This document shows positions 26,167 to 53,128 of a stretch of DNA of 64,000 nucleotides, piece by piece. The number at the start of each line of letters is the position of its first letter. The stretch's first letter is position 1. The DNA lies in the NCBI GenBank assembly GCA_021777755.1, contig JAJYDE010000019.1, forward strand, positions 1-64,000. Direction: 5' to 3'. The translations under genes and the position numbers were made by a program. The notes beneath the pieces are model-generated. The model saw only the letters and a program-made list of their open reading frames with translations. It was not told where the DNA came from and made no database searches. Source of the DNA: Deltaproteobacteria bacterium (GTDB lineage Bacteria; Desulfobacterota; Syntrophobacteria; Syntrophobacterales; Syntrophobacteraceae).

Positions 26167-26943
26167 TCAAAGACACGATCTGTAAACGAGATGAATCCCG
26201 ATCAGTGTGAGCAGGAATATAAAAACGTCTTTTAGCTGGCGCTCATCGATTCTAGTGGCAAGCAGCGGACCGATTTGGCCGCCGATAAGAACCCCCGGCA
26301 CGCCCCAGACTATTGTCGATAAGCTGGGCCTTGCTTTCATAAAAAAATAGGAGCCCGCTCCCAGTACCGACATGCCGCAGGTGACAAGCACACACGTGGC
26401 CACGGCATTGCTCATCTTCAGACCCATTTTTTTCCGCATTACCGGCACGAGCCACTCGCCGATATTTATTGTGAGCATCCCGCACATCACGGCCGTAAGA
26501 CATCCAATCCAGCCATGCCGCAGGGCCGCCTTCAATTTGACACGTTCATCGCCTTCCTCTCCATACCGATGGTTGGAAGACACGAACACAAGAGCGGTCC
26601 CCAAAGAGATGAGACCGATGATCAGCCCGATGTGCGTCAAGCTCAGATGGTGGCCTATGTAGGCCCCAAGAACCAGACCGGGCACTCCGATGGCAAGAAG
26701 AAACAAAGCCAGCCGGACATCCGCCTTCTTGTTATGGATGTAAGCAAAGCTGCCGGAGGCGGTCCCCGCGATCTGAATAAGCAACGAGGTCAAAAGAGCC
26801 GATGTCGGGGCAATCTTTAGCCCCATCAGCAGCAGGGGCATCCAAAGGATGCCCCCCCCGAATCCAACAATGGTTACAACTGAGGCTATGCAAATGCCTG
26901 CCGGAAAAGCAACCCAGAAAGGAACCAATTCGTTACTCCTCAA
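26167..26943 (-). CDS. TauE/SafE-family sulfite/anion exporter
   Basis: The 258-aa protein is almost entirely hydrophobic with about eight predicted helices in two internally similar halves: IVGFGGGILWMPLLLMGLKI near the start and NAVATCVLVTCGMSVLGAG in the second half, both typical of TauE/SafE. The family exports sulfite, sulfoacetate or other sulfur compounds and organic anions; the substrate here cannot be told. It overlaps the upstream HAMP gene by 11 nt, so the two are cotranscribed. Confidence 0.9.
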   Translation of the reverse strand: MRSNELVPFWVAFPAGICIASVVTIVGFGGGILWMPLLLMGLKIAPTSALLTSLLIQIAGTASGSFAYIHNKKADVRLALFLLAIGVPGLVLGAYIGHHLSLTHIGLIIGLISLGTALVFVSSNHRYGEEGDERVKLKAALRHGWIGCLTAVMCGMLTINIGEWLVPVMRKKMGLKMSNAVATCVLVTCGMSVLGAGSYFFMKARPSLSTIVWGVPGVLIGGQIGPLLATRIDERQLKDVFIFLLTLIGIHLVYRSCL

Positions 26944-27550
26944 TCCCGTAGAATTTGCAATTCTTGACGATGTCGTTGATCAGCTTGGCCTCCGAACTCA
27001 GATGACTGATTTTTTTTCGAAGCCCCTCCAGCTTTTCCCGATCCATCACGGGAGTGTTAAGCGCATCTGAAATTTCACCCGAAAATTCGGATACCGTCGC
27101 GCTGATGCCCCTTGCGAGCAAAATCATTTCCTGCAGGTTGCTGGTCAGATCATTGACGGTGCCGCCCAGCTCGGCCAGTTCGTTGTCGGCGCGTATCTCC
27201 ACCGTCCGGCTCAGATCTCCAGCCGAAACCAGTCTGCAAGTCTCTATCATATGCTGCAGTGGTTCACTTATGTTCTTTATGAACATGGTGAGAAGAATCA
27301 AGACCACCACAAGGAACAAAATGACCATGACGATGGCCTTGTCGCGAAGCGTGCGGATGGGCTCAAGTGCCGCCGCGGCCTGAATCCGGCCCCCGTGGAG
27401 TTTGTCGAAATTGTGAGTCAGTTCGATGCGAAGCGCTCTGCTTTGGGTGTCGTAGACGAACTCGGCCACGATCATGAGCGAGGCCAAACTGATCATTAGA
27501 AAGTAAATGATCATAGTGCGCTGCAAACTGCCCTTGCGGAAAATCTTCAC
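26933..27550 (-). CDS. Membrane HAMP-domain protein without output domain
   Basis: A GTG at 27550 with AGGG 6 nt upstream fits best, giving 205 aa. There are two membrane helices (MIIYFLMISLASLMIVAEF and IVMVILFLVVVLILLTMFI) around a small extracytoplasmic segment of about 50 residues. A HAMP domain follows (about 95-150; ISEPLQHMIETCRLVSAGDL, NELAELGGTVNDL) and then a helical tail with no kinase, receptor hairpin or cyclase. It may signal through a partner, and the overlap with the TauE exporter suggests it senses or gates the exported anion. Confidence 0.8.
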   Translation of the reverse strand: MKIFRKGSLQRTMIIYFLMISLASLMIVAEFVYDTQSRALRIELTHNFDKLHGGRIQAAAALEPIRTLRDKAIVMVILFLVVVLILLTMFIKNISEPLQHMIETCRLVSAGDLSRTVEIRADNELAELGGTVNDLTSNLQEMILLARGISATVSEFSGEISDALNTPVMDREKLEGLRKKISHLSSEAKLINDIVKNCKFYGIEE

Positions 27551-27713
27551 GGAAAACCCTCGTCGCGGAGTTGCAAAACATGAGGAACTCATTGATTATA
27601 CAGATAACATTAACTAGCGTGGCGCTCCAGAAAACAAAATTCCAAGCTGCCGCACTTTTGCGGCGATGCTAGACTATCTCTTGACGCGGTGTCAAACTTT
27701 TTATTCGCTCTTT

Positions 27714-28123: not shown

Positions 28124-28816
28124 ATGAGCGTTTCTGCTTGCAACGTCGAAATGTTTCCCGATATCGCCCGGATCCTGCGTGCGCTCTACCGCCTGATCCT
28201 CGATGGGAGCCTGCTCAAGCATTGCGTGGCAAGCCTGTTCCGAGTTACGGTCGGCTTCTATCTGGCCATTGTTACGGCCGTTCCCTTGGGGGTGCTTCTG
28301 GGGCTCTACCGGACCCTTTATCGAATAGTCAATCCGGTGATCCAATTCTTGCGGCCCATATCGCCGCTCGCCTGGGCGCCCTTTGCCATTCTTTGGTTCG
28401 GCATAGGCGATTTGCCCGCCATCTTCATTATTTTTCTCGCCTGCTTTTTCCCCCTTCTCATCGCCGCGGTCGATGCAAGTGCCAACATCAATCCCATCTA
28501 CTTTCAGGTGGGCGCGAACCTGCAGCTTTCCCGGTGGAGCGCATTTGCAAACATCATTTTGCCGGCCATCATTCCCAATGTCATGTTGGCCCTGAGGATG
28601 ACCCTGGGGATGGCCTGGGTGGTGGTCGTGGCCGCCGAGATGATCGGGATGAAAAGTGGTCTGGGTTTTCTCATCGTAGACGGTCGGGACGCTTTGCGCC
28701 TTGACCGTGTGGCCGCGGCCATGTTGGTCATCGGGCTTATCGGGCTTGTGCTCGATCGCATCATGCAGCAACTCGGGGAATTGGAATCGCTGAGGTGGAA
28801 AAATGCCCGAAAGTAA
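28124..28816 (+). CDS. ABC importer permease, nitrate/sulfonate/taurine type (SsuC-like)
   Basis: The 230-aa product has five to six membrane helices and the cytoplasmic EAA-like loop VGANLQLSRWSAFANIILPA that docks to the ATPase. PISPLAWAPFAILWFGIGDL matches the SsuC/TauC/NrtB permease signature. It is the first gene of a plus-strand run reaching 41.7 kb and overlaps the ATPase gene by 14 nt. The transported solute is uncertain: this family takes up nitrate, sulfonates, bicarbonate or thiamine precursors. Confidence 0.9.
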   Translation: MSVSACNVEMFPDIARILRALYRLILDGSLLKHCVASLFRVTVGFYLAIVTAVPLGVLLGLYRTLYRIVNPVIQFLRPISPLAWAPFAILWFGIGDLPAIFIIFLACFFPLLIAAVDASANINPIYFQVGANLQLSRWSAFANIILPAIIPNVMLALRMTLGMAWVVVVAAEMIGMKSGLGFLIVDGRDALRLDRVAAAMLVIGLIGLVLDRIMQQLGELESLRWKNARK

Positions 28817-29609
28817 AATCCATTTCGACCGCGTCTGCCTGGAGTACCCCAAAAACGGCAATAAGAGTGGGCTGCGCTTTGCGCGAACTCCCCGTCCCAA
28901 CGGCCAGTCCACCCTGGTACTTGAAAACATCGACCTGGAGATCGAGACCGGTGAATTCGTCTCAATCATTGGCCACTCGGGATGTGGGAAATCTTCCCTG
29001 CTAAAGATCGTGGCCGGTTTCGTAAGACCCACCGGCGGATCGATTTGGATCGACGGCCGTCCAGTCGAGGGGCCCCGTGCCGATCATATGTTCGTCTTTC
29101 AGGAGGGAGCGCTTTTCCCGTGGCTGACGATCCTCAAAAATGTCTCGCTTGCCCTCAATTCGGCTCGCGATCAAGCCGATCGGATCAAGATGGCCAGGCA
29201 ATACCTGGAGCTGGTTTCTCTGGAAGCCTACGAGGATTACTACCCGCACATGCTCTCGGGAGGCATGAGGCAGAGGGCTGAACTGGCGCGCGCCCTGGCG
29301 GCTAGACCAGACGTTCTCCTGGTGGATGAACCCTTTTCCGGCCTGGATTATCTTACCCGGCTTCAAATGCGCGAAGAAATACTCTATCTGCATATGATGC
29401 TTGAAAAAACGACCATTCTTTTTGTGACCCACGATATTGACGAAGCGCTCCAGTTGAGCGACCGGGTGGTTATTATGAGCGGTCCCCCCGGCAGATTGCA
29501 ATCCTGCCGCCCGATTTGCGTGGCGCATCCGCGCCAGCTTTCCAGCTCGGTTTTGGACGAGATGCGCTCCGATATCTACCATCAACTGGGGGTGCATGCG
29601 GCGCTATGA
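28803..29609 (+). CDS. ABC importer ATPase, SsuB/TauB-like
   Basis: The 268-aa product has Walker A IIGHSGCGKSSLL, Q-loop FQEGALFPWLTI, signature MLSGGMRQRAELARALAARP, Walker B VLLVDEPFSGLD and the switch His in FVTHDIDEAL, all typical of the nitrate/sulfonate importer class. It ends with an ATGA overlap into the binding-protein gene. Confidence 0.95.
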   Translation: MPESKIHFDRVCLEYPKNGNKSGLRFARTPRPNGQSTLVLENIDLEIETGEFVSIIGHSGCGKSSLLKIVAGFVRPTGGSIWIDGRPVEGPRADHMFVFQEGALFPWLTILKNVSLALNSARDQADRIKMARQYLELVSLEAYEDYYPHMLSGGMRQRAELARALAARPDVLLVDEPFSGLDYLTRLQMREEILYLHMMLEKTTILFVTHDIDEALQLSDRVVIMSGPPGRLQSCRPICVAHPRQLSSSVLDEMRSDIYHQLGVHAAL

Positions 29610-30679
29610 GGTGGCTTAAAATCCCAAAATCGAGCGGGGTTCGAATCTGCCTTGCGGCTGCCGGTTGGCTGGCGGTCATTGCCGCCTTGCATTTTTATCT
29701 CAATGCGCCGAGCAGGACCGGCAAACTCGTTCGCATGGGCTATATGCCCGTTGTTACCAACCTTGCCGCCCCTTTGGTCGATTATGTCACCAGGAGCGAC
29801 AAGGTTCATTTCGAGGCCGTAAAATTCAGCTCATTTTCCGACATGGGGCAAGCATTCCGTTCGGGCGCCATCCAGGCCGCCTTCATCATCGCTCCGCTCG
29901 CCATAAGGCTCTTTGAACAGGGAGTCCCGCTCAAGGTGGTCTATATCGGCAATCGCAACGAGAGCACGCTGGTGGTGAGGGCGGGGCTAAAGATCGACTC
30001 GGCCTCCGATCTTGCGGGCAAAACCATAGCCGTTCCCATCTTTTATTCCGGTCACTTCCTGGCGCTAAGACGGTATATGCGGGAACATCACCTGGGCAAA
30101 AACGCCATCAACATCGTTCAGGTGCCTCCGCCGGATATGCCTGCTGCTTTGGCATCCGCCCAGATCGACGGCTACTTTGTCGGTGAACCCTTCGCCAGTG
30201 AGGCGATCGCAAGCGGAATCGGCAAACGATTTCTAAACGTCGAATCGATCTGGCCCAAATTCATCTGCAACGTCCTCATAGTCCGAGAGGAGTTGATTTG
30301 CGCACATCCCCGATGGGTCCGGCGCCTGGTGGCCATGGCCGTCGGATCGGGCCTGTGGGCTCAAACGCATGAGGATGAGGCCATAAAGATCGTCTCCTCC
30401 TATTGGGGGATGGAGCCTCGGGTTATCGAATACACTTTTTCGCATCCGCCCGGCAGGTTTCGCTTCGATCTTTTCGTTCCCGTTGCGGCCGAGTTCAATC
30501 AAATAGCCAGTGAGATGCGCACTGATAACCTGCTGCGGGCTAATATCAATGTGGGCGCAATGGTTGAAGACCGTTTCGCCAGCGCGGCCCGGCGATATTT
30601 CGCGGGGCCGGTGGATAAACTCTCATCTATCCGATGGAGTCCTGGAAAGGGTCCCCGGATGCAGGCTGCTCAAAAATGA
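29606..30679 (+). CDS. ABC importer substrate-binding protein (NMT1/SsuA-like)
   Basis: ATG 29606 overlaps the ATPase stop (ATGA), giving 357 aa. An N-terminal hydrophobic segment (VRICLAAAGWLAVIAALHFYL) could be an uncleaved anchor or signal peptide. The rest is a periplasmic binding fold of the NMT1/SsuA/NrtA class: VRMGYMPVVTNLAAPLV, SFSDMGQAFRSGAIQAAFII, SDLAGKTIAVP and ALASAQIDGYFVGEPFASEA. An anchored form would suit a protein that also reports ligand occupancy to a receptor. Its stop overlaps the next start (ATGA), which ties the importer to the chemosensory genes. Confidence 0.9.
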   Translation: MRWLKIPKSSGVRICLAAAGWLAVIAALHFYLNAPSRTGKLVRMGYMPVVTNLAAPLVDYVTRSDKVHFEAVKFSSFSDMGQAFRSGAIQAAFIIAPLAIRLFEQGVPLKVVYIGNRNESTLVVRAGLKIDSASDLAGKTIAVPIFYSGHFLALRRYMREHHLGKNAINIVQVPPPDMPAALASAQIDGYFVGEPFASEAIASGIGKRFLNVESIWPKFICNVLIVREELICAHPRWVRRLVAMAVGSGLWAQTHEDEAIKIVSSYWGMEPRVIEYTFSHPPGRFRFDLFVPVAAEFNQIASEMRTDNLLRANINVGAMVEDRFASAARRYFAGPVDKLSSIRWSPGKGPRMQAAQK

Positions 30680-32718
30680 AGGTGTTGGTATTAGCTAAAG
30701 AATACGAAACTGAGAAATTGCTCGATGATCTGTCCGGCATCGACGGCGAAGTTGTATTTATTCATGGTGAAAACGCTCTGGATGTCCAGGTCGGTCCGGC
30801 GGAAGCCGACGTTATTTTATGCGGCGCCTCCGGGGTTGGCTCCAGTGGCTCGATTCTCGCCTGGCGATGCCATCACCATGCCTATCTGATTCCCTGCTGG
30901 TTTGCCTGCGACAGGGAAACTCTTAGCCGAGCATGTCTTTGGCCTCATCTGGCAATCGACAGGTTCGATTCGCAATGCGGGGAAAAGTCTTTTTCCCAAT
31001 GGCTGCTCGATGTGGCCCAATGGCAGCATAACCGGTTGCTTTTGGGCGATGGAGGCGACGTGGGGCAGCGGAGCGCTCTCGAGTTGGCTACCGCCTTATC
31101 CCTTAGAAAGGCCACCGGCCTGCTTTCGGTCTTCGACGACAGCGGGGCCGAAGGCGAGTTCCTTGTTAAGGACGGCGATCTTTTGTCCGCTTCCTTTAAA
31201 GCCTTGAGTGACGAACAGGCCTTCTACGAGCTTTTGTGCGCCACCGGCGGACGCTACGTTTGGAGCGAAAAGCCGTTGTCGAAGGGGGGGGAGCCGCGTC
31301 CGCTTTCCGTCCTCATTGCCCAAGGATTGAAAGTTATAAGCGAGGCCAATTTCCTTTATCATTTCGCCTCCAATCCCGAGCAACATCTTATGACCACCGA
31401 CTCGCAGTCGGCTCTCGATGATTCCGCGATCGAGAACTACAGCGAACAGAAAAAATTATACGGTCTGATAGAAAAAGGGGTTTCCCTCTCCCGGGTGCTC
31501 GGCGCCTCTTCGCTCTCAAAACCCTCTACCATGGCGATCCTTGCCAAATGGTTTTCCCTTGAGGACATATCGGTGGTTGCGGGTCAGCTTCCCGTGATCG
31601 AAGAGATGAGCCTGATGCCGTCCGTGATTGATGAGAGCTCGCTGGTTTGCGAAAAGCTTTGCGAGCCCGAGTGCAGAGTGCTCATTGTTGACGACTCCTC
31701 CCTTATCTGTAACGTCCTGCGCAAAATCTTCGAAGAAGACCCCCGGATGAGCGTGGCCGGGATTGCTCACGACGGCCTTGAGGCCATCAGGATGGTGGGC
31801 GAGCAAAAACCCGATGTGGTCACGATGGACCTGCAAATGCCCCGCATGGACGGCCTGACAGCCCTCAAACACATTCTGATTCGCGACCCGCGCCCCGTCG
31901 TTGTCCTTAGTGCCCTTACCGAAGCCACCTCCAGGCTGACTTATGAATCCTTCAAATACGGCGCGGTCGATGTGATGCAAAAGCCGCCTAATGCGGCCAA
32001 CCAATCCGGCGGCTCCAACAATGATTTTTGTGACCGGGTTGTCCTTGCCTCGCGAATTCAGTTGGATGCGGTCCGCTACATTCGCCGAAATAATAAATCG
32101 GAGGCGGGCCGTCGAAATGTTTTCCCCGAAGCCACCGGGGATGGAACTGAAAAAGTCGTCGTGCTGATCTGCGGCGCCGGAGGCGCCCCCTCTTTGATAA
32201 AGCTCCTCTTCGCAATTCCCTCGCTGAACTCCTTGCCCCTTTGCGTTCTCGGGGTGGATATGCCCTGGCAGGTGAGCGAGGCGCTGATAACCAACCTGAA
32301 GCAGGATACCGCCTTACCGCTGGAAAGGGTCGCCGGGGCCGGACCTCTCAGCCCGGGCCGTTTTCATGTGGTCTCCAATGAGATTCGTTATCGTCTCTTG
32401 GAGGAAAACAAGGGGCTCAAACTGGAAAAATTCCGAGGCGATTCCGCCTCGGAAGGCATTTTCGATCTGTTGCTCTCCAGTGCGGCCAAGACCCTGAACT
32501 CCCGGCTGGTCGCCGTTGCGCTTTCCGGCCCCGGGGAGGATGGCCTCGAAGGAATGCGCCTGGTGAAACAGGCCGGCGGGCAGGTGTTTGCTCTCAGTCC
32601 CGGGGCGTGTCTCAAGCCCGAACTGCCCCGAAAACTGATCGACCTCGGGTATGCCACGGAAATTATGAATATTGGTAAATTGTCCGACCTTTTCGATACC
32701 CGGACCAACGGGCTTTAG
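30676..32718 (+). CDS. PATAN (DUF4388) + receiver + degenerate CheB-like protein
   Basis: Start at ATG 30676, which overlaps the binding-protein stop; 680 aa. A unique N-terminal region is followed by a PATAN/DUF4388 domain (about 115-230; LELATALSLRKATGLLSVFD, GEFLVKDGDLLSASFKAL) and a canonical receiver (about 332-450; LIVDDSS, Asp in VVTMDLQMPRMDG, Lys in MQKPP). The last ~190 residues align with the CheB methylesterase, but the catalytic Ser motif (GASTGG) reads CGAGGA and the His motif (VQHM) reads GVDM, while the Asp region survives in LSGPGEDGLEGM. Methylesterase activity is thus not expected. It probably acts as a phosphorylatable scaffold or output adaptor. Confidence 0.88.
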   Translation: MKVLVLAKEYETEKLLDDLSGIDGEVVFIHGENALDVQVGPAEADVILCGASGVGSSGSILAWRCHHHAYLIPCWFACDRETLSRACLWPHLAIDRFDSQCGEKSFSQWLLDVAQWQHNRLLLGDGGDVGQRSALELATALSLRKATGLLSVFDDSGAEGEFLVKDGDLLSASFKALSDEQAFYELLCATGGRYVWSEKPLSKGGEPRPLSVLIAQGLKVISEANFLYHFASNPEQHLMTTDSQSALDDSAIENYSEQKKLYGLIEKGVSLSRVLGASSLSKPSTMAILAKWFSLEDISVVAGQLPVIEEMSLMPSVIDESSLVCEKLCEPECRVLIVDDSSLICNVLRKIFEEDPRMSVAGIAHDGLEAIRMVGEQKPDVVTMDLQMPRMDGLTALKHILIRDPRPVVVLSALTEATSRLTYESFKYGAVDVMQKPPNAANQSGGSNNDFCDRVVLASRIQLDAVRYIRRNNKSEAGRRNVFPEATGDGTEKVVVLICGAGGAPSLIKLLFAIPSLNSLPLCVLGVDMPWQVSEALITNLKQDTALPLERVAGAGPLSPGRFHVVSNEIRYRLLEENKGLKLEKFRGDSASEGIFDLLLSSAAKTLNSRLVAVALSGPGEDGLEGMRLVKQAGGQVFALSPGACLKPELPRKLIDLGYATEIMNIGKLSDLFDTRTNGL

Positions 32719-32786
32719 CCCGGGCCGATCGAAGAGGCGGTGGTGGAATTGTCGGACCCCGACCCAAGTTAGGAGGAGTAGAGCGC

Positions 32787-33344
32787 ATGCAACTCAATAC
32801 TTTGTCCACGCACGCGACACGCATGCGGGAAGAATCACGGCAGATGATGCAACTGGTCAGTTTTCGTATTGGCCATGAGGAATTCGGGGTCGATATCTTG
32901 ATGGTGCAGGAAATCATCAGGTTTACGACCATAACGCCCATTCCCAACGCTACGCAGGCTATCCTCGGCATGATCAATTTGCGTGGCAGAATTATCCCCG
33001 TAGTCGATCTCAGATGGGTCCTTCGAATTGGTGGCGGTGAGGACAAGACCATCAATCGGAATGCGCGAATCCTTATCATCGAGCTCGACACCCATGTCAC
33101 CGGATTCGTCGTCGATTCGGTCTCCGAGGTCATGAAGGTCCCGGTGGCCGAAATCGAGCCTACTCCCAGCCTGGTGACTTCCAGCATCAGTTCGGCCTAT
33201 ATCAGCGGTGTTGTGAAGCTGACCCAGCGGTTGATAATTCTTCTCGATTTCAAACGAATCTTAAAGCCCAGGGAAGCCAGAGAGGTCCAAAACCTCGGCA
33301 TACAGGCCGCTTTGCTCGATCACGAAAATATGCAGGACGATTAG
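32787..33344 (+). CDS. cheW: CheW-type coupling protein
   Basis: The 185-aa product has a CheW domain (about 25-165): [40 protein letters not shown] and VVDLRWVL are typical. It links the receptor at 33.4 kb to CheA. About 25 extra residues precede the domain. The start is supported by AGGAGGAG upstream. Confidence 0.95.
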
Positions 33345-33396
33345 GGATTTTTTTCTATTCATCAAATCACCGGTCATAAAAATGGAGGAGTTGATT

Positions 33397-35892
33397 ATGT
33401 TTGGATTCATTACCCGATCCATAAAAACCAAATGGTTGGTCCTGTTCCTTTTTGCCGCTTTGCTTCCATCTTCGATTCTGGCTTTCTACGGTTATCACGC
33501 CGCCAAGGATTTGAACCTCGATCAGTTGAAAGATAAGTACGTCGGTTTTTCCCACCGCGTTGCGCTCTCGTTGGAACTCTACATGAACCAACGCGTCGAT
33601 AACGTGATCTCTTGGTCCGAACTCTCGATTTACAAATCAGCCATTTCAAACGATTCCGGCATTCAAGCGGCCAACAGCCGTCTTGCCGATTCAGCCAAGG
33701 TTTATCATTTCAGCCTCATCACGTTGACGGATGCCTCGGGCCAATGTGTGGCCTCAAACTTCCCGCAGTTGATCGGCAACCGTGCCAAGGGCGAACCCTG
33801 GTTCGATACTGCCATCAAAGGGAAGCTGTATGTGGGCGATTTCGGGGTTTTCCCGATCATTAAGAAGGTGTCCCCCGATTCGAGGGGATTTTCGCTTGTC
33901 ATGGCCTCGCCCGTCAAGGTCGACGGTCAGGTTAAAGGTGTGGTGGCAGGCTATCTCGATTGGAATTCGGTAAACAGTTTGAACGATAGCTTCGGTAAGG
34001 TCGGCAAAACCGGGTACACCTACATTACCAATCTCGACACCGGCGCACTTATCATTTACCCCTTTTCAAAACTGCTCGGTCTCACCTTGCAAGGCCCGGT
34101 CATCAAGGTTCCCCAGGCCTATGAGAATTTGAAAAGCGCTCCCGAAGGCCTCATGCACTATAATTACACCAACAAGCAGACCCATAAGACCGCGGTCAGG
34201 ATGGTCGGCTTCGTTCACATGGATGCCTTCGGCAATTTTCCCAAGAAGAACTGGGCGGTGGCAAGCGGTGAAGATTACTCCGCAGCCATGGCCCCTCTTG
34301 ACCAGGAACTTTATTTTAACGCCATCTTCTTTACAATCCTGGTCATTATGATCATTGCCGTCGATCTTATCGTCGGCGGTCCAATTTCCAAGCCTCTCAT
34401 TAAAACCACCGACGAGATGACCGAAATAGCCAAGTCGCTCGATTTTACCCGCACCATGGAAGTCAAGGGCCATGACGAGATCGCCGCTCTGCAGCACGCC
34501 TTCAACGGCCTTATAGCAAAACTCAGGGACACCTTCGGCACCATTATGCAAAGTAATAAGGAGGTTTCGATCTCCGTTTCCAAGGTTAAGGACATTTCGG
34601 CCAATATTGCCAATAACGCCACAGAGCAGTCCAACAGAGCCGGCGACGTTCTGGCCCGGGTTGTCACCATGGGGCAGACGGCCGAAGAAGTCCAGAAAAA
34701 CGCTGTTGAAACCCGGTCTTCTTTTACTGACGCCGCCAAACTTATCCAGCAGTTCGCGGCAAGCAGCCAGAAGATCGCCCAGGCAGCTCAAAGTCAGAGC
34801 GAAATGGTCGGTAAGGCCGAATCGGTTATCGGCCTCATGGGTGAGACCGCCCAGCAGGTTGCGGCGCGCGCCGCCCTTCAGGCCGAAGCCGCGGTAAAGA
34901 CGGCCTCCTCGGCCGCCGAAATGACAAACGCCATCGGCTCGGTTGTCGATAAGACCTCGGAAGCCGACAAGGAATCGGCCCTTTCGCACAAGGCCGCCGT
35001 CGATGGGCGCGCCGCAGTCGAAAAGGTGGCTGTCAGTATGCAGAACATCGCCGAAAGTTCCGAGCAGATTACCGAAATCATCGAGGTTATCTCCGACATT
35101 GCCGACCAGACCAACCTGCTGGCTTTGAACGCGGCAATCGAAGCCGCCCGCGCCGGAGAACACGGTAGAGGTTTTGCCGTCGTTGCCGAAGAGGTCCGCA
35201 AGCTCGCCGAACGAACCGCTGAATCCACCAAGGAAATCTCCGTGCTCATCAAGGGCAGTGCGGATCGTGTTAAGGAAGGTTCCGAACTTGTTGCCTCCAG
35301 TCGGCAAGCCATCGGCGCCATCGTTGAGGCGGTTGGAAAAACCAATGCTCTGATCCACGATATCAGCCAGACGACCTCCGAGCAAAGAGAGGTCACCGAA
35401 GCGGTGGCAAAGGCCATGGAAAACCTGCGCGCACTGTCGAGCGAAATTATGGAAATGACTTCCGAACAGGGTAAACGGCGCCAACTGGCCGGCTCCATCA
35501 TGAATGAAGTGACCGAACTCTCCAAAACCGTGTCCGGATCGACTGCGGCCCAGGCGAGCGACTCCGACAAGGTTATCGATGAAATGCAGAAAATGAACGA
35601 GCGCGCCCAAAACATTACCAACCTGACCAGCGCCCAGAGGGAACGCGCCCAGGAACTGCTGCGCATCATTCAGGAAATGGAAAGGGTCGCCACCGCCAAC
35701 GCCTCTGGCGCCCAAAACTCCCATCAGTTCTCTATCAATCTGATCGGAACCGTGGAACACTTCAGCGCCCTGGTCCAACAGTTTAAAATCGAGGCCACCG
35801 AATCGTCAAACGGCGATTCAACCCCGAAATCAAATGAACCCAAAGTCGCCGAATCGCCTTCGGCTCCAAAGGAGAATCAGGCCGCGGCCTGA
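33397..35892 (+). CDS. Methyl-accepting chemotaxis-type receptor with dCache sensor
   Basis: ATG 33397 has GGAGGAG 7 nt upstream, so the earlier in-frame ATG at 33382 is not used. The 831-aa protein has a membrane helix ([19 protein letters not shown]), a long periplasmic double-Cache-like domain (about 40-305; [55 protein letters not shown]), a second helix ([17 protein letters not shown]), HAMP (about 325-385) and a signalling coiled coil with the hairpin tip [20 protein letters not shown]. There is no C-terminal pentapeptide tether. No CheR is encoded nearby, so adaptation by methylation is doubtful. It may sense the importer solute directly or through the binding protein. Confidence 0.93.
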
Positions 35893-35934
35893 GATTGACC
35901 GAAGACACTACCGCATATATGAGATTGGAGTTCC

Positions 35935-36288
35935 ATGCCAAAGCGGGTGCTTGTTGTAGATGATTCAAATTTGCTCCGCAACGCCATTTCCAGGTGTCTT
36001 ATCAACGCCGGGCACGAAGTTGTCGGAAAAGGCCAGAACGGCGACGAAGCCGTTTCGCTCTACCAAAAGCTTCGGCCCGACGCGGTCACCCTGGATGTCA
36101 CCATGCGGGGCAAGGACGGAATAGCCGCAGCCGAAGAAATTTTGCGGCTCGACTCGAATGCGTTCATAATCTTGTATACCCTGCTCAATATTCCTGAGCT
36201 GGCAGCAAAGACCAGCCGGATCGGAGTCAGGAATATCATCAGAAAAGGAGACGAAAAAGAATTGCTAAGGGCCATCGACGCGGCCTGA
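35935..36288 (+). CDS. cheY: CheY-type single-domain response regulator
   Basis: A stand-alone 117-aa receiver: RVLVVDDSNLLRNAIS, phosphoacceptor Asp in AVTLDVTMRGKDG, and the conserved Lys in IIRKGDEKEL. Thr/Ser of the fourth strand is seen in ILYTLLN. It lies between the receptor and CheA and is a likely phosphate acceptor. No flagellar genes are in the window, so its output may not be motility. Confidence 0.92.
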   Translation: MPKRVLVVDDSNLLRNAISRCLINAGHEVVGKGQNGDEAVSLYQKLRPDAVTLDVTMRGKDGIAAAEEILRLDSNAFIILYTLLNIPELAAKTSRIGVRNIIRKGDEKELLRAIDAA

Positions 36289-36342
36289 TTTCCGCTTGAC
36301 TTTGGCTGCCTCAACTCTTCTTTCGTTAAAAAAGGGAATTCT

Positions 36343-39021
36343 ATGGTATCGCAGGATTTCTTGCAGGACTATGTTGAAGAGGTTCGGGAACATCTGATCG
36401 ATATGGAAAAATCCCTCCTGCTTTTGGAGCAGGAGGGAGTGGACCAGGAGCAGATAGCCCAGGTTTTCAGGGCCGCCCACAGTATCAAGGGGGCCTCGGC
36501 CTGCATGGGCTTCGAGGGACTTACCGGCCTGACTCACGAATTGGAAAGCCTGATAGCGGCCGTGCAACACAGCGCGCAGGCCGTTCCGCCGGCCGGCATC
36601 AGTTTGCTCCTGGATTGTGTTGACTTGATCTCCAAAGCGATGGAGCACGTAAAACAAAATGGCCGGGAACCGGCTATCGATTCGTCGCTTTTGGAAAATC
36701 TGCATTCCGCATTCCACAAAGAGGGACTGGTGCCGCAAAGAGCTCGCCCGGAGCCCTCCGCCGGCACCTCGGAGATGATCGAGACCGCCCCGCCGGTTTC
36801 CTCCGAGGCCGATGACGATTCCGCGGCCTCCCATGTTGATCATGCCCCCTTCGAAGAGGAAGATGAAGAGCTTTTGGGCATTTTCGTCTCCTCGTTTCAG
36901 GAAAACATGATCCGGCTTTTTGATATTCTCACCGCTTCCGCCGAGTCCGGTCTAAGCGATGATGATCGCAAGGCTTTGCTGGAATTGTCCGGCAAATTGA
37001 CATCCTCTGCGCGATACATGGACTATCAGCCTATCGTGGCAGAGTTGGAGCAGTGGGCCAAAAGCCTTGAGTCGGACGAGGCGCGGGACATTTCCCGTCG
37101 AAAGGCCATGGAGGCCCTGGAGACTCATGCGCTCAGCTTTAGAAGCATGGTCCCCCAGCTTGCCATACCACGCTTTGTCGAGCCCGCGTCCCCGGCCGCC
37201 CCCCCGCCCATCCAGGAAGAGGATCAGGAATTGTTTGCCATCTTCCTGGATTCTTTCCAGCAAAACCTTTCGCGGCTTGCCGAGGCCATTTCGGCCCCCG
37301 GTCCCGACAAGGTCAGCCTGGAAAACGCCTCGGAGTTGACCGAGAGCCTTATTCAATCCTCAAAGTACATGGACTATACCGTTCTGGTCGAATTACTCGA
37401 AGAATGGCAGGGATACCTGGTCGCCTTCAAGGACATGGATGCCAAGGACCTTGGCCCGCTGAGGGGGAAATTGTCCTCCATTGCCGGCAAAATCAAAGAG
37501 CAGCTTACTGAACTGAATTTACCCGGTTTTGAAGATCAGCGGCAATCCTTCTCGGAGCTTCTCGACGAGGAGATGGATTTAGTCTTCTCGGTGGGTAACG
37601 ATCTCGCTGAGGCGGATTTTCCGGTGCCTGCTCAGGCGCAAGAGGATCATCGGAGCCCCGCACTCGCCAGGCCTGCCACTGATTTGGGCACCTATATGGC
37701 CAAAGAACGCCTGGCACCCGCCTCGGAGGAAACTCCCCAAAGCAGCGCGGCAACCCTCAGGGTTGACGCCCAGAAGGTCGATCAACTCCTTAATCAGGTG
37801 GGAGAACTGGTCGTCAATCGATCCGAATTCATTCAGACAGTCACTTTTTTCCGTGATATGGTCCGGGAACTCACTACCCGGGGGCTTTTGCCCAAACATG
37901 AATTGAGAAGACTGAAGCTGCTCAATTTCAGAATGAATGAATCCACCCAGTCAATGGGGCGCATCGCCAACGATCTTCAGGCTTCGGTCATGCGGATTCG
38001 CATGTTGCCCATCAATCAGCTTTTTCAGCGCTTCCCCAGGATTGTGCGTGATCTTGCCTTGAAACTCGGCAAACATGTGGAACTGATGGTCGACGGTGGA
38101 GAAACCGAAATTGACAAGCGCGTTCTCGAGCAGATGTACGACCCGCTGGTGCAATTCATTCGTAACGCCATCGCCCACGGCATAGAATCTCCTGAGGAAC
38201 GCAGGCGAGCGGGCAAGCCCGAAACCGGCGTGATCAGTCTTTCGGCCAATCACGCCGGCGACTACGTGGTGGTCGAAATTGCCGACGACGGACACGGCAT
38301 CGATACCCGGAAGCTGCGCGACCTGCTGCTTAGTCGCAACGCCGTCAGCCGGCCCGAGTTGGAAAGACTCAGTGACGAAGAGATCGTCTATTCGATCTTC
38401 ATGCCAGGGATGTCCACCTACGACAAGGTGGACGGAGCAGCCGGGCGCGGAGTCGGCCTTGACGTCGTAAAGCAAAATGTCGAACATATGAACGGCACGG
38501 TCGAGGTGGAGTCCGAGGCGGGGAGGGGAGTCAAATTCGTTATCCGGATCCCTTTGACCGTTGCAATCATCCGGGCGCTGCTCGTAAGGGAAGGCGACCA
38601 GATCTTCACTCTGCCCCTTACCTCGGTGACCGAAATTTTGCGCCACAGGCCAGAGGAGACCCACTCCATCGAAGGCTTCAAGGTCATAACGCTTCGCGGA
38701 AAGACCATCCCTCTGGTGGACCTCGGGAATTTGCTCGGCATGGCCGCTCAGCAGGCCGACGACGGAGGGCGCTTTGTGGTCATTGTCTCCACTAGCTTCA
38801 GAGAAGTCGGCCTTGTCGTTGACGGATTGATGGGAGAAAGAGAAGTCGTTCTCAAATCGATCGAAAACAATTTCCAGCCGGTCGAGGGCTTCTCCGGCGC
38901 CACCATTCTCGGGGACGGACGAGTGTCTCTGATCGTTGATGTCTCGGCCCTCCTGCGGATGCGCAATATCGCAACCGGGGGCCATATGCACACATCCGAG
39001 GGCGGGCAGTATGTCAACTGA
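36343..39021 (+). CDS. cheA: CheA-type histidine kinase with extra HPt-like repeats
   Basis: The 892-aa product has an N-terminal HPt domain with phosphorylatable His46 in FRAAHSIKGASACMGF. Two similar segments follow (about 170-246 and 290-360; EEDEELLGIFVSSFQENMIR and EEDQELFAIFLDSFQQNLSR) that resemble HPt helices but have Gly and Glu where the His should be. Then come the dimerisation region (LRVDAQKVDQLLNQVGELVV), the ATPase (IRNAIAHGIESPEERRRAGK; IADDGHGID; GRGVGLDVVKQNVEHMNG) and a C-terminal CheW-like domain. No receiver is attached. It is the core kinase of the array, and the pseudo-HPt repeats may space or dock partners. Confidence 0.94.
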   Translation: MVSQDFLQDYVEEVREHLIDMEKSLLLLEQEGVDQEQIAQVFRAAHSIKGASACMGFEGLTGLTHELESLIAAVQHSAQAVPPAGISLLLDCVDLISKAMEHVKQNGREPAIDSSLLENLHSAFHKEGLVPQRARPEPSAGTSEMIETAPPVSSEADDDSAASHVDHAPFEEEDEELLGIFVSSFQENMIRLFDILTASAESGLSDDDRKALLELSGKLTSSARYMDYQPIVAELEQWAKSLESDEARDISRRKAMEALETHALSFRSMVPQLAIPRFVEPASPAAPPPIQEEDQELFAIFLDSFQQNLSRLAEAISAPGPDKVSLENASELTESLIQSSKYMDYTVLVELLEEWQGYLVAFKDMDAKDLGPLRGKLSSIAGKIKEQLTELNLPGFEDQRQSFSELLDEEMDLVFSVGNDLAEADFPVPAQAQEDHRSPALARPATDLGTYMAKERLAPASEETPQSSAATLRVDAQKVDQLLNQVGELVVNRSEFIQTVTFFRDMVRELTTRGLLPKHELRRLKLLNFRMNESTQSMGRIANDLQASVMRIRMLPINQLFQRFPRIVRDLALKLGKHVELMVDGGETEIDKRVLEQMYDPLVQFIRNAIAHGIESPEERRRAGKPETGVISLSANHAGDYVVVEIADDGHGIDTRKLRDLLLSRNAVSRPELERLSDEEIVYSIFMPGMSTYDKVDGAAGRGVGLDVVKQNVEHMNGTVEVESEAGRGVKFVIRIPLTVAIIRALLVREGDQIFTLPLTSVTEILRHRPEETHSIEGFKVITLRGKTIPLVDLGNLLGMAAQQADDGGRFVVIVSTSFREVGLVVDGLMGEREVVLKSIENNFQPVEGFSGATILGDGRVSLIVDVSALLRMRNIATGGHMHTSEGGQYVN

Positions 39022-39082
39022 GCTATTGCCTTGTCCTGTGATTCGCCCTTTTGCTCAGCAAGCCGATTGGTAGAGGTTGCGC

Positions 39083-40624
39083 ATGCAGTCGACCCATTCC
39101 ATTACCAGGGGATTTACCGGCACCATCAGCCTTGGACTGACTGAATTGATACAGATGGTTTGCCTTTCCCGCTCGGACATCGTCATCGGGGTGACATCCG
39201 GGAGAGGCAAGGCGACCATCCATATCAGCCAAGGCCAGATACAGCACGCGCAAACCGAACTTCTGACCGGCACGGAAGCTTTCTTCGAGGTCGCTCGGTG
39301 GAATGACGGCCAGTTTGAGATCCTTCCCTTTGAAAACGGCGCCCCCTGCTCGATCGATAAACCCTGGGAGCACCTGCTTTTGGAAGCCATCCGTCAGCAG
39401 GACGAAAATGGCGGCCAGGGAGTCGCCGCCAAGCCGGGTGCGGATGATTTTTTGAATAGCGGTCCAAATCTTGATGCCGACATTCTTGACGGAATCGACG
39501 ATGTGCTGGGCAATTTGTTGGCTTTCGACCCTTCCTGCGCCCTGTCGGAGGAAGTGCCGTCAAGTGTTTCTCAAACCCGCGATACCGTTAAGGTCCTGAT
39601 TGTTGACGACTCCTCTTTTTTTTCAAAAAAACTCAAGGAAATGCTCGAACTCGACCACGATATCGAAGTGGTCGGCGTTGCCCGCAATGGAAAGGAGTCT
39701 TTGGAATTTCTCGATTCCGAGGCCCCGGTTGATGTGATCACCCTTGATGTCAACATGCCTGTCATGCCTGGCGATACCGCTCTGAAATACATCATGATTC
39801 GACATCGCACCCCCGTGATCATCATGAGCGCCCAGGAACCCGATTCCATGCGCAAGATTTTTAATTTCCTCCAACTTGGCGCGGTGGACTTTGTCTCCAA
39901 GCCCGGTCTCCATGACGACCTGCCCACCTACGGGGCAAACGTTCGAAAACATGTCAAAGGTGTGGCAAAAGCACGGATTTCCAACTTCAAGCGTTTGCGA
40001 ACCCCCGGTCGGGCGGGCAACCTTGTTGTCCCGAACCAAACGGGAGTTGCTCAGGGCAAGACTCTGGTTATCGTGGGGGCGGAGGGCGCACACATGGACT
40101 GGCTGCGCCTGCCGCTTGCGCGGTTGTGCGCCGACGGCACCATTATCGGGCTCCAGAAACTCGATAGCGGTATTGCACCCCATTTTGCCCGATTCATAAT
40201 GGATAAGACCGGAATTCAAACCGAATACTTATCGGCGGCTCACCTGTTGACGCCGGGCAAATTGTATCTGTCCGACGCCAGCCTGGCAGCCGAGTTCATG
40301 TTCAGGCCAAACAAGCCGATCCATGTCGATGTTGGCGGTTCGGTGGTTTTGGAATGGGAGGATGGTCTAGCACTTTGGCTCCAACGCCTCGCCCAGCAAA
40401 TTGGCGAGTCCCTGTGCGTCTATTACATGTCCGCCGCTCAACCGGTGTCAGGGGCCTTATTGGATAAATTACTCGAACTGGAGGTCAGGCAAATTTTGCC
40501 CCCCCTCCAATCCGTGGTTTGCTCCACATTGATAGACAGTATACAGCCTTATGCCGTGCAGTTTCCCGGCCTTGTGCTCACTTCGAGTGCGGACTCTTTG
40601 ACGGAGGTCTTGAAAAAGCAATGA
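39083..40624 (+). CDS. PATAN + receiver + degenerate CheB-like protein, second copy
   Basis: ATG 39083 has AGAGG 6 nt upstream; 513 aa. A PATAN/DUF4388 domain (about 1-110; GFTGTISLGLTELIQMVCLS, GKATIHISQGQIQHAQTELL) precedes a canonical receiver (about 170-290; LIVDDSSFFSKKLKEML, Asp in VITLDVNMPVMPG, Lys in FVSKPGL). The C-terminal ~190 residues are CheB-like only in outline: GAEGAHM replaces GASTGGP, LQKLDSG replaces VQHMPxG, and the TGMGxDG region reads MSAAQPVSGALL. All three catalytic residues are therefore missing. It overlaps the next gene by ATGA. Confidence 0.87.
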   Translation: MQSTHSITRGFTGTISLGLTELIQMVCLSRSDIVIGVTSGRGKATIHISQGQIQHAQTELLTGTEAFFEVARWNDGQFEILPFENGAPCSIDKPWEHLLLEAIRQQDENGGQGVAAKPGADDFLNSGPNLDADILDGIDDVLGNLLAFDPSCALSEEVPSSVSQTRDTVKVLIVDDSSFFSKKLKEMLELDHDIEVVGVARNGKESLEFLDSEAPVDVITLDVNMPVMPGDTALKYIMIRHRTPVIIMSAQEPDSMRKIFNFLQLGAVDFVSKPGLHDDLPTYGANVRKHVKGVAKARISNFKRLRTPGRAGNLVVPNQTGVAQGKTLVIVGAEGAHMDWLRLPLARLCADGTIIGLQKLDSGIAPHFARFIMDKTGIQTEYLSAAHLLTPGKLYLSDASLAAEFMFRPNKPIHVDVGGSVVLEWEDGLALWLQRLAQQIGESLCVYYMSAAQPVSGALLDKLLELEVRQILPPLQSVVCSTLIDSIQPYAVQFPGLVLTSSADSLTEVLKKQ

Positions 40625-41730
40625 TTCTCACCGATACAACCTCGGCTTCGGCCCCGATAAAGGCGCTTATCGTCGACGATACCCCCTTTATGCGCAAAAC
40701 CGTGCAAAGGGTCCTTGGCGACAGCGATATGATTCAAGTTGTGGGAACGGCGTCAAACGGACTTGAATGCCTCGATAAAATTGATGAACAAAGGCCGGAT
40801 GTAATCACTCTGGATATCGATATGCCTGTGATGAACGGCATCTCAGCGGTAAAGAATATAATGATCCGCCATCAGATTCCCATTGTGATTATCAGCTCTC
40901 TTATCCAGGACGGATACTTCGCCTTCGAAGCCTTGAGGCTGGGCGTGATGGACTTTGTGCCCAAGCCCTCGAAGGTGGGGAAGGCCAATTTCATAAATGA
41001 AGAAGATCTTATCAGGCAGCGGGTCCTGATGGCCGCCAATATGCAAGTAAATCGCGTGCGCCGCGTGCGCTACAAACGCCGTTCGGTTCCCGGACTGTTA
41101 TCCTCGCTTGACCGGCCGAGCGGTATTGCCGTAATTGGCGCCAACCTTGCCGGACCCAATACCATCATGCATCTGGTCTCCGCGCTTCCCGCCAATTTCA
41201 GCGGGGCCATCATAGCCATTCAGGAAATTCACCCTAAAATCCTGGCCCCCTTTTGCGCATGCTTTAATCAGATCAGCCCCGTCGAAGTCGTTCCCGTGGT
41301 CTCTCCGACCCCGCTCTTGCCGGGCAAGGTCTACATGGGCTCGACCGTGAGCGGCCTGAGCGTTGAGACTGCCGAAAATGGCCCGAGCGGCCTGGAAGTA
41401 CGCCCAGCGGGCTCTTTCAAGTTTCCCATAGACCGGCTCTTTGACAGCGCCGCCCGTCACTTCCGCGAGCGCGCTTGCGGAGTACTGCTAACCGGAGTGG
41501 GCTCCGATGGCGCCGATGGAATGGCGCTCATAAAAGCGGCCGGTGGGCTTACCATTGCCCAGGATACAAACTGCTGCGCCTTTACCAACCTGGTGGAAAA
41601 TGCGATTCAAAGAAACATTGTAGACGCCGTCCTGTCCACCGTCCAGATCGCCGAGCGACTGAGCGCCTGGCCCTTCAGTGTTGTTTCCGACGAGCATTGG
41701 GATGTCGCATCAGTTGCAACCAGCCGGTGA
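40621..41730 (+). CDS. Receiver + CheB-like protein lacking catalytic Ser and His
   Basis: ATG 40621 overlaps the previous stop (ATGA); 369 aa, the normal CheB length. The receiver (about 12-130) is canonical (LIVDDTPFMRK, Asp in VITLDIDMPVMNG, Lys in FVPKPSK). The C-terminal half keeps the overall CheB pattern (ALPANFSGAIIAIQE, PLLPGKVYMG, CGVLLTGVGSDGADGMALIK with the Asp), but GASTGGP reads GANLAGP (Ser to Asn) and VQHM reads IQEI (His to Glu). It is the closest of the three to true CheB, yet should not hydrolyse methyl esters. It is the last gene of the array, followed by a hairpin at 41749-41777. Confidence 0.9.
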   Translation: MILTDTTSASAPIKALIVDDTPFMRKTVQRVLGDSDMIQVVGTASNGLECLDKIDEQRPDVITLDIDMPVMNGISAVKNIMIRHQIPIVIISSLIQDGYFAFEALRLGVMDFVPKPSKVGKANFINEEDLIRQRVLMAANMQVNRVRRVRYKRRSVPGLLSSLDRPSGIAVIGANLAGPNTIMHLVSALPANFSGAIIAIQEIHPKILAPFCACFNQISPVEVVPVVSPTPLLPGKVYMGSTVSGLSVETAENGPSGLEVRPAGSFKFPIDRLFDSAARHFRERACGVLLTGVGSDGADGMALIKAAGGLTIAQDTNCCAFTNLVENAIQRNIVDAVLSTVQIAERLSAWPFSVVSDEHWDVASVATSR

Positions 41731-53029: not shown

Positions 53030-53128
53030 TGGCGGAAGCGCATGGGAATCGAACCCACCTGGGAACGCCTTCACGCCCCCACACCGGATTTGAAGTCCGG
53101 GAGCCCCACCAGTGAGCTTGGCGCTTCC
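53030..53128 (-). tRNA. selC: Selenocysteine tRNA (anticodon TCA)
   Basis: The 99-nt minus-strand RNA has the special features of tRNA-Sec: an 8-bp acceptor stem (GGAAGCGC with GCGCTTCC), a long D-stem (GGGGCTCC region), anticodon TCA in GGACTTCAAATCC as in E. coli selC, a long variable arm (GTGGGGGCGTGAAGGCGTTCC) and T-arm GGTTCGATTCC, with an encoded CCA. It has its own strong promoter. It shows that the organism inserts selenocysteine at UGA; no selenoprotein or selA/selB/selD gene is evident in the window. Confidence 0.95.

Follow-up and report, generated by a model that had tools for sequence, protein, structure and literature searches.

Helicobacter pylori has a chemosensory pathway that lacks both CheR and CheB and uses CheV proteins and flagella. 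Both CheR and CheB usually figure in lists of core chemosensory proteins (PMC3447774). Type IV pili of cyanobacteria are a target of PATAN receivers (PMC7690835), and genes for PATAN proteins occur close to mglA/mglB (PMC4316618). We found no description of a set of non-catalytic CheB proteins in the open-licence literature that we searched. Here we describe an operon with three such proteins, termed CheB1, CheB2, and CheB3. With a probability of roughly 0.6, we regard it as a CheR-independent operon in which phosphorylation-switched, non-catalytic CheB folds serve as docking domains, with a probable output to pili or MglA-MglB.

The window, the whole 64,000-nucleotide stretch of DNA that was analysed, belongs to a Syntrophobacteraceae-type MAG (Desulfobacterota) with a genome of 4.2 Mb on 103 contigs. 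The operon is on contig C74 of this genome (G000) and comprises ten genes on the forward strand (28124–41730; Table 1); its nearest named relatives are Syntrophobacteraceae and other deltaproteobacterial MAGs. The real start of the substrate-binding protein possibly lies 3' of 29516, and the start codon of CheB2 is uncertain by a few residues either way. Residues ~160–380 of CheA, between the first Hpt domain and the kinase core, are degenerate Hpt-like sequence from which the phosphorylatable His is apparently absent; the Hpt model gives this middle region 18 bits, under the cut-off. The window also contains a tRNA-SeC gene (53030–53128, reverse strand) and, 5' of the operon, a small HAMP-like membrane protein without an obvious kinase (26933–27592, reverse strand; ORF reading only).

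Table 1. Genes of the chemosensory operon, with positions in the window and the basis of each assignment.
Feature	Position	Strand	Basis
ABC transporter permease (BPD_transp_1)	28124..28816	+	Pfam; position kept in most relatives
ABC transporter ATPase	28803..29609	+	Pfam ABC_tran 112 bits; synteny
Substrate-binding protein (NMT1_2 / phosphonate-binding type)	29516..30679	+	Pfam; binding-protein gene flanks reduced operons tested too
CheB1: weak PATAN - receiver - CheB domain	30676..32718	+	Pfam, alignments
CheW	32787..33344	+	Pfam 127 bits
MCP: dCache-like sensor, HAMP, signalling domain	33382..35892	+	Pfam
CheY-type single receiver	35935..36288	+	Pfam 66 bits
CheA: Hpt, H-kinase_dim, HATPase, CheW domains; long middle region	36343..39021	+	Pfam
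CheB2: PATAN - receiver - CheB fold	39083..40624	+	Pfam, AlphaFold2 model, structure comparison
CheB3: receiver - CheB domain	40621..41730	+	Pfam, alignments

We set the catalytic positions by phmmer alignments to the solved CheBs (1A2O, 1CHD, and 3SFT) and by a MAFFT alignment of orthologues. At the positions of S164, H190, and D286, CheB1 has G/D/D and CheB3 has N/E/D. CheB2 has Glu or Ala (in GAEGAH the column matching Ser could be either of two neighbouring residues), Lys, and Val. The alignments bear out the first-pass annotation, made from the sequence alone, which had claimed that all three proteins lack the catalytic Ser and His; its motifs and coordinates were right, and none of the three has an intact Ser/His/Asp triad. 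Asp286, on which that annotation was silent, is retained in CheB1 and CheB3. The CheB-like proteins are very unlikely to be methylesterases because Ser and His are absent.

The Pfam CheB_methylest family matches CheB1 (78 bits) and CheB3 (130 bits). CheB2 has no Pfam CheB match, and its C-terminal domain alone has no PDB sequence match. Structure prediction, which the first-pass annotation had proposed, was run for CheB2 and gave an AlphaFold2 model (13 sequences, mean pLDDT 78.3, pTM 0.65) whose residues 166–513 superimpose on 1A2O with Z 33.1 and rmsd 2.9 (328 aligned, 19% identity). CheB2 therefore has a complete CheB fold without any of the three catalytic residues. A PATAN domain (DUF4388) is present in CheB2 at 58 bits (cut-off 25); CheB1 scores 22.6 bits, below the same cut-off, but 16 of 17 CheB1 proteins match with E ≤ 0.01. 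The first-pass annotation had assigned PATAN domains to two of the copies. CheB3 has no PATAN match, and by Pfam none of the three proteins has a CheW domain, a trait of CheV.

The complete ten-gene set, with CheB1, CheB2, and CheB3, is shared by eleven family relatives, so that the search for the same trio in related genomes gave a positive answer. These include G012, in which the set is split over two contigs, and G023 and G007, in which the contig cuts the transporter end; in G021 a stop breaks the CheB1 frame. Relatives within the order have a reduced form (CheB1-CheW-MCP-CheA-CheB2) adjoining a binding-protein gene, and relatives within the class have an enlarged form in which CheB1, CheB2, and CheB3 are joined by a ParA-type ATPase and by a fourth CheB, whose triad is intact. 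These additions are seen in L050 (2308–4293) and L051 (4208–6659), and L051 also has a PilZ protein. The operon thus occurs in Syntrophobacteraceae and in some other Desulfobacterota. A 257-residue gene beside the extra CheB in class relatives resembles CheR by size only and is the ParA-type ATPase. In two other loci (L053, 16834–18498; L054, 10135–12003) a Ser/Thr protein kinase gene adjoins the binding-protein gene of the reduced operon.

None of 47 orthologues, in an alignment that includes the three window proteins, has Ser and His together. Gly always occupies the Ser position of CheB1, the His position of CheB2 is Lys, Arg, Gln, or another residue, and Glu is invariant at the His position of CheB3. 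Loss of catalytic residues, with the interrupted CheB1 frame of G021, is what one would expect if ordinary CheB copies were decaying in this lineage. We find this reading scarcely credible: the three clades are kept across genera and beyond the family, the other frames are intact, and the receivers are invariant. Chance or decay is excluded because the gene order and the residue losses are shared with the eleven relatives.

The Ser position of CheB3 is Thr or Asn in the family and still Ser in two class relatives. CheB3, and perhaps CheB1, could thus have a different hydrolytic activity that uses Thr or Asn, Glu, and Asp, in keeping with the retained Asp286 and the invariant Glu of CheB3. We consider such an activity quite improbable, since the catalytic His is missing from every copy, CheB2 is changed at all three positions, and the class relatives hold a fully catalytic fourth CheB as well.

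The first-pass annotation had called the set a triplication. The tree does not agree: CheB1, CheB2, and CheB3 form three separate, well-supported clades, and CheB3 joins catalytic CheB rather than CheB1 or CheB2, with moderate support (93/79). The three CheB-like proteins are separate, old clades, which leaves a triplication from one recent ancestor unsupported. In 14 of the 55 class genomes a CheB3-type profile scored above 278 bits; the next best score was 105 bits. We also scanned 84,980 species for CheB3-type proteins with exact short patterns, a requirement by which relatives may be missed; a match in Pseudanabaena is a catalytic CheB (GASTGGP, QHI).

The phospho-acceptor Asp of the receiver, which the first-pass annotation had reported as kept, is present in every aligned sequence (the three window proteins and the 47 orthologues), and the receiver residues as a whole (acid pair, Asp, Ser, and Lys) are invariant or nearly so across orthologues. 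In CheB3, the columns around the three catalytic positions have an entropy of 0.55 compared with 1.26 for the rest, a value as low as this being reached by 90 of 5000 random segment sets. The enrichment is modest, and pocket conservation is weaker in CheB1 and CheB2 (298/5000 and 274/5000 random sets as low, ~6%). The operon has four intact receivers to a single CheA and shows no phosphatase gene. The extra receivers might act as phosphate sinks that take phosphate from CheA and make the CheY signal shorter, with the CheB folds as passive remnants. This is unlikely: conservation in CheB3 is higher at the altered pocket than over the remainder of the domain, the replacement residues being invariant, and CheB2 retains the full fold. 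That the CheB folds are phosphorylation-regulated binding modules, as first proposed, is plausible from the sequences; the proposal is consistent with the invariant receiver residues and the conserved, altered pockets, whereas the function itself is one that we infer.

Genome-wide statements below rest on family (profile) searches. The contig of the window yielded no CheR, in line with the earlier reading that the locus has none, and the operon itself includes no CheR partner. The search across genomes gave a divided result. Five CheR genes are present in the genome of the window, each on another contig: on C21 and C43 CheR lies with CheB and CheA, on C93 with CheB and an MCP, on C68 with CheA, and C83 holds a CheB-CheR fusion. 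CheR is absent from the complete genome G015 (one contig, 4,990,251 bp), which we take to be S. fumaroxidans MPOB. Family searches of G015 found one CheA and one PF00015 receptor, all from the operon, two PF01339 matches (the operon's CheB1 and CheB3), no FliM, and no true CheR, with partial matches only at 24.6 and 21.2 bits. Those two matches are ordinary methyltransferases, for which Methyltransf families score better.

The S. fumaroxidans genome paper reports non-motile cells without flagella, CheR, CheV, or CheC, one each of CheA, CheW, CheY, and CheD, two cheB genes, and two PilT-like proteins (PMC3570798). The same paper counts nine MCPs (PMC3570798), compared with the one found by PF00015 in G015. 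Because the complete G015 genome has the operon as its sole chemosensory set and no CheR, it is strongly supported that the pathway is able to work without receptor methylation by CheR. CheR genes lie elsewhere in the window's own genome and in flagellated relatives, and their products could act in trans; the CheD reported in S. fumaroxidans makes receptor modification without CheR conceivable.

The strict methylation consensus is absent from the cytoplasmic domain of the window's MCP. Of the operon MCPs from the window and related loci, 15 in all, eight show no strict consensus within reach of the tip; in the other seven there is one, in most cases away from the usual positions. Of 15 further MCPs encoded in four of these genomes, 14 carry at least one consensus, mostly at −81, −74, −67, or +108 from the tip. 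The first-pass claim that the pathway does not adapt by methylation holds in part: the CheR-free G015 and the missing MCP motifs speak for it, and the CheR genes elsewhere in the window's genome and the reported CheD limit it.

The strongest rival is a methylation-free feedback in which the CheB-like proteins, once phosphorylated, bind back to the array of receptor and CheA and reset it, as has been suggested for CheV; they would then be adaptation parts, not outputs. The lack of PATAN in CheB3, its position nearest to catalytic CheB, and its conserved altered pocket are in keeping with such a role, as is the lack of CheR, and of CheV and CheC, in S. fumaroxidans (PMC3570798). The CheB-like proteins have no CheW domain, however, and PATAN on two of the three points to output; we therefore rate feedback as a serious, though minority, possibility. 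It may hold for CheB3 while CheB1 and CheB2 carry output, and the two readings are compatible.

Three features suggest that the output goes to type IV pili or to cell polarity: the PATAN domains, the PilT genes, and an MglB-MglA (Roadblock-Ras) pair directly 3' of CheB3. The pair is found in G015 and G012, which are the two family genomes with the trio and without detected FliM; in the family, mglBA directly adjoins the operon in no more than 2 of 12 genomes. All seven trio genomes checked have PilT/PilB-type ATPases, in keeping with a pilus output, but these ATPases are widespread, and S. fumaroxidans is described as non-motile. The Roadblock (MglB-type) and Ras-like (MglA-type) genes that follow CheB3 (L046, 15798–16872; L048, 27–1039) are in two genera without detected FliM.

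In the docking reading that we favour, the binding protein and ABC transporter, together with the dCache receptor, would feed CheA, as judged from gene content. CheA would phosphorylate four receivers, those of CheY and the three CheB-like proteins, to judge from their intact residues. The CheB folds would most likely be phosphorylation-controlled docking domains. These proteins, two of them with PATAN domains, probably carry the output, for which type IV pili or the MglA/MglB polarity machinery would be the most likely targets.

A CheB fold kept three times without its chemistry offers a natural test of the non-catalytic role of the fold, and an operon without CheR in a complete genome offers a test of a receptor array working without methylation. 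The system is testable in S. fumaroxidans, a cultured syntroph in which the operon is the only chemosensory pathway. A wider proposal, which we regard as rather doubtful, is that this is a distinct kind of pathway in which three phospho-switched, non-catalytic CheB folds replace methylation adaptation and also carry output to MglA or type IV pili. If true, receptor feedback and output share one repurposed fold.

Like the H. pylori pathway, the operon would signal without receptor methylation; it differs in having CheB-like proteins and no CheV, and S. fumaroxidans has no flagella. With the CheB methylesterase (1A2O, PF01339) the operon's proteins share a receiver and a CheB domain with the full fold, and they differ in that all three lack Ser and His, two have an added PATAN domain, and the operon has no CheR. 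PixG, PixE, and LsiR, which act on cyanobacterial type IV pili, likewise combine PATAN and a receiver in a chemosensory-type pathway (PMC7690835), whereas CheB1 and CheB2 carry an extra C-terminal, non-catalytic CheB fold and their target is putative. In the Frz system of Myxococcus, FrzF is a CheR for methylation (PMC3447774), and the operon's own link to MglA is one of gene neighbourhood in two genomes. Among known systems, Frz/MglA comes closest to the output proposed here, as chemosensory input there reaches MglA polarity (PMC4316618).
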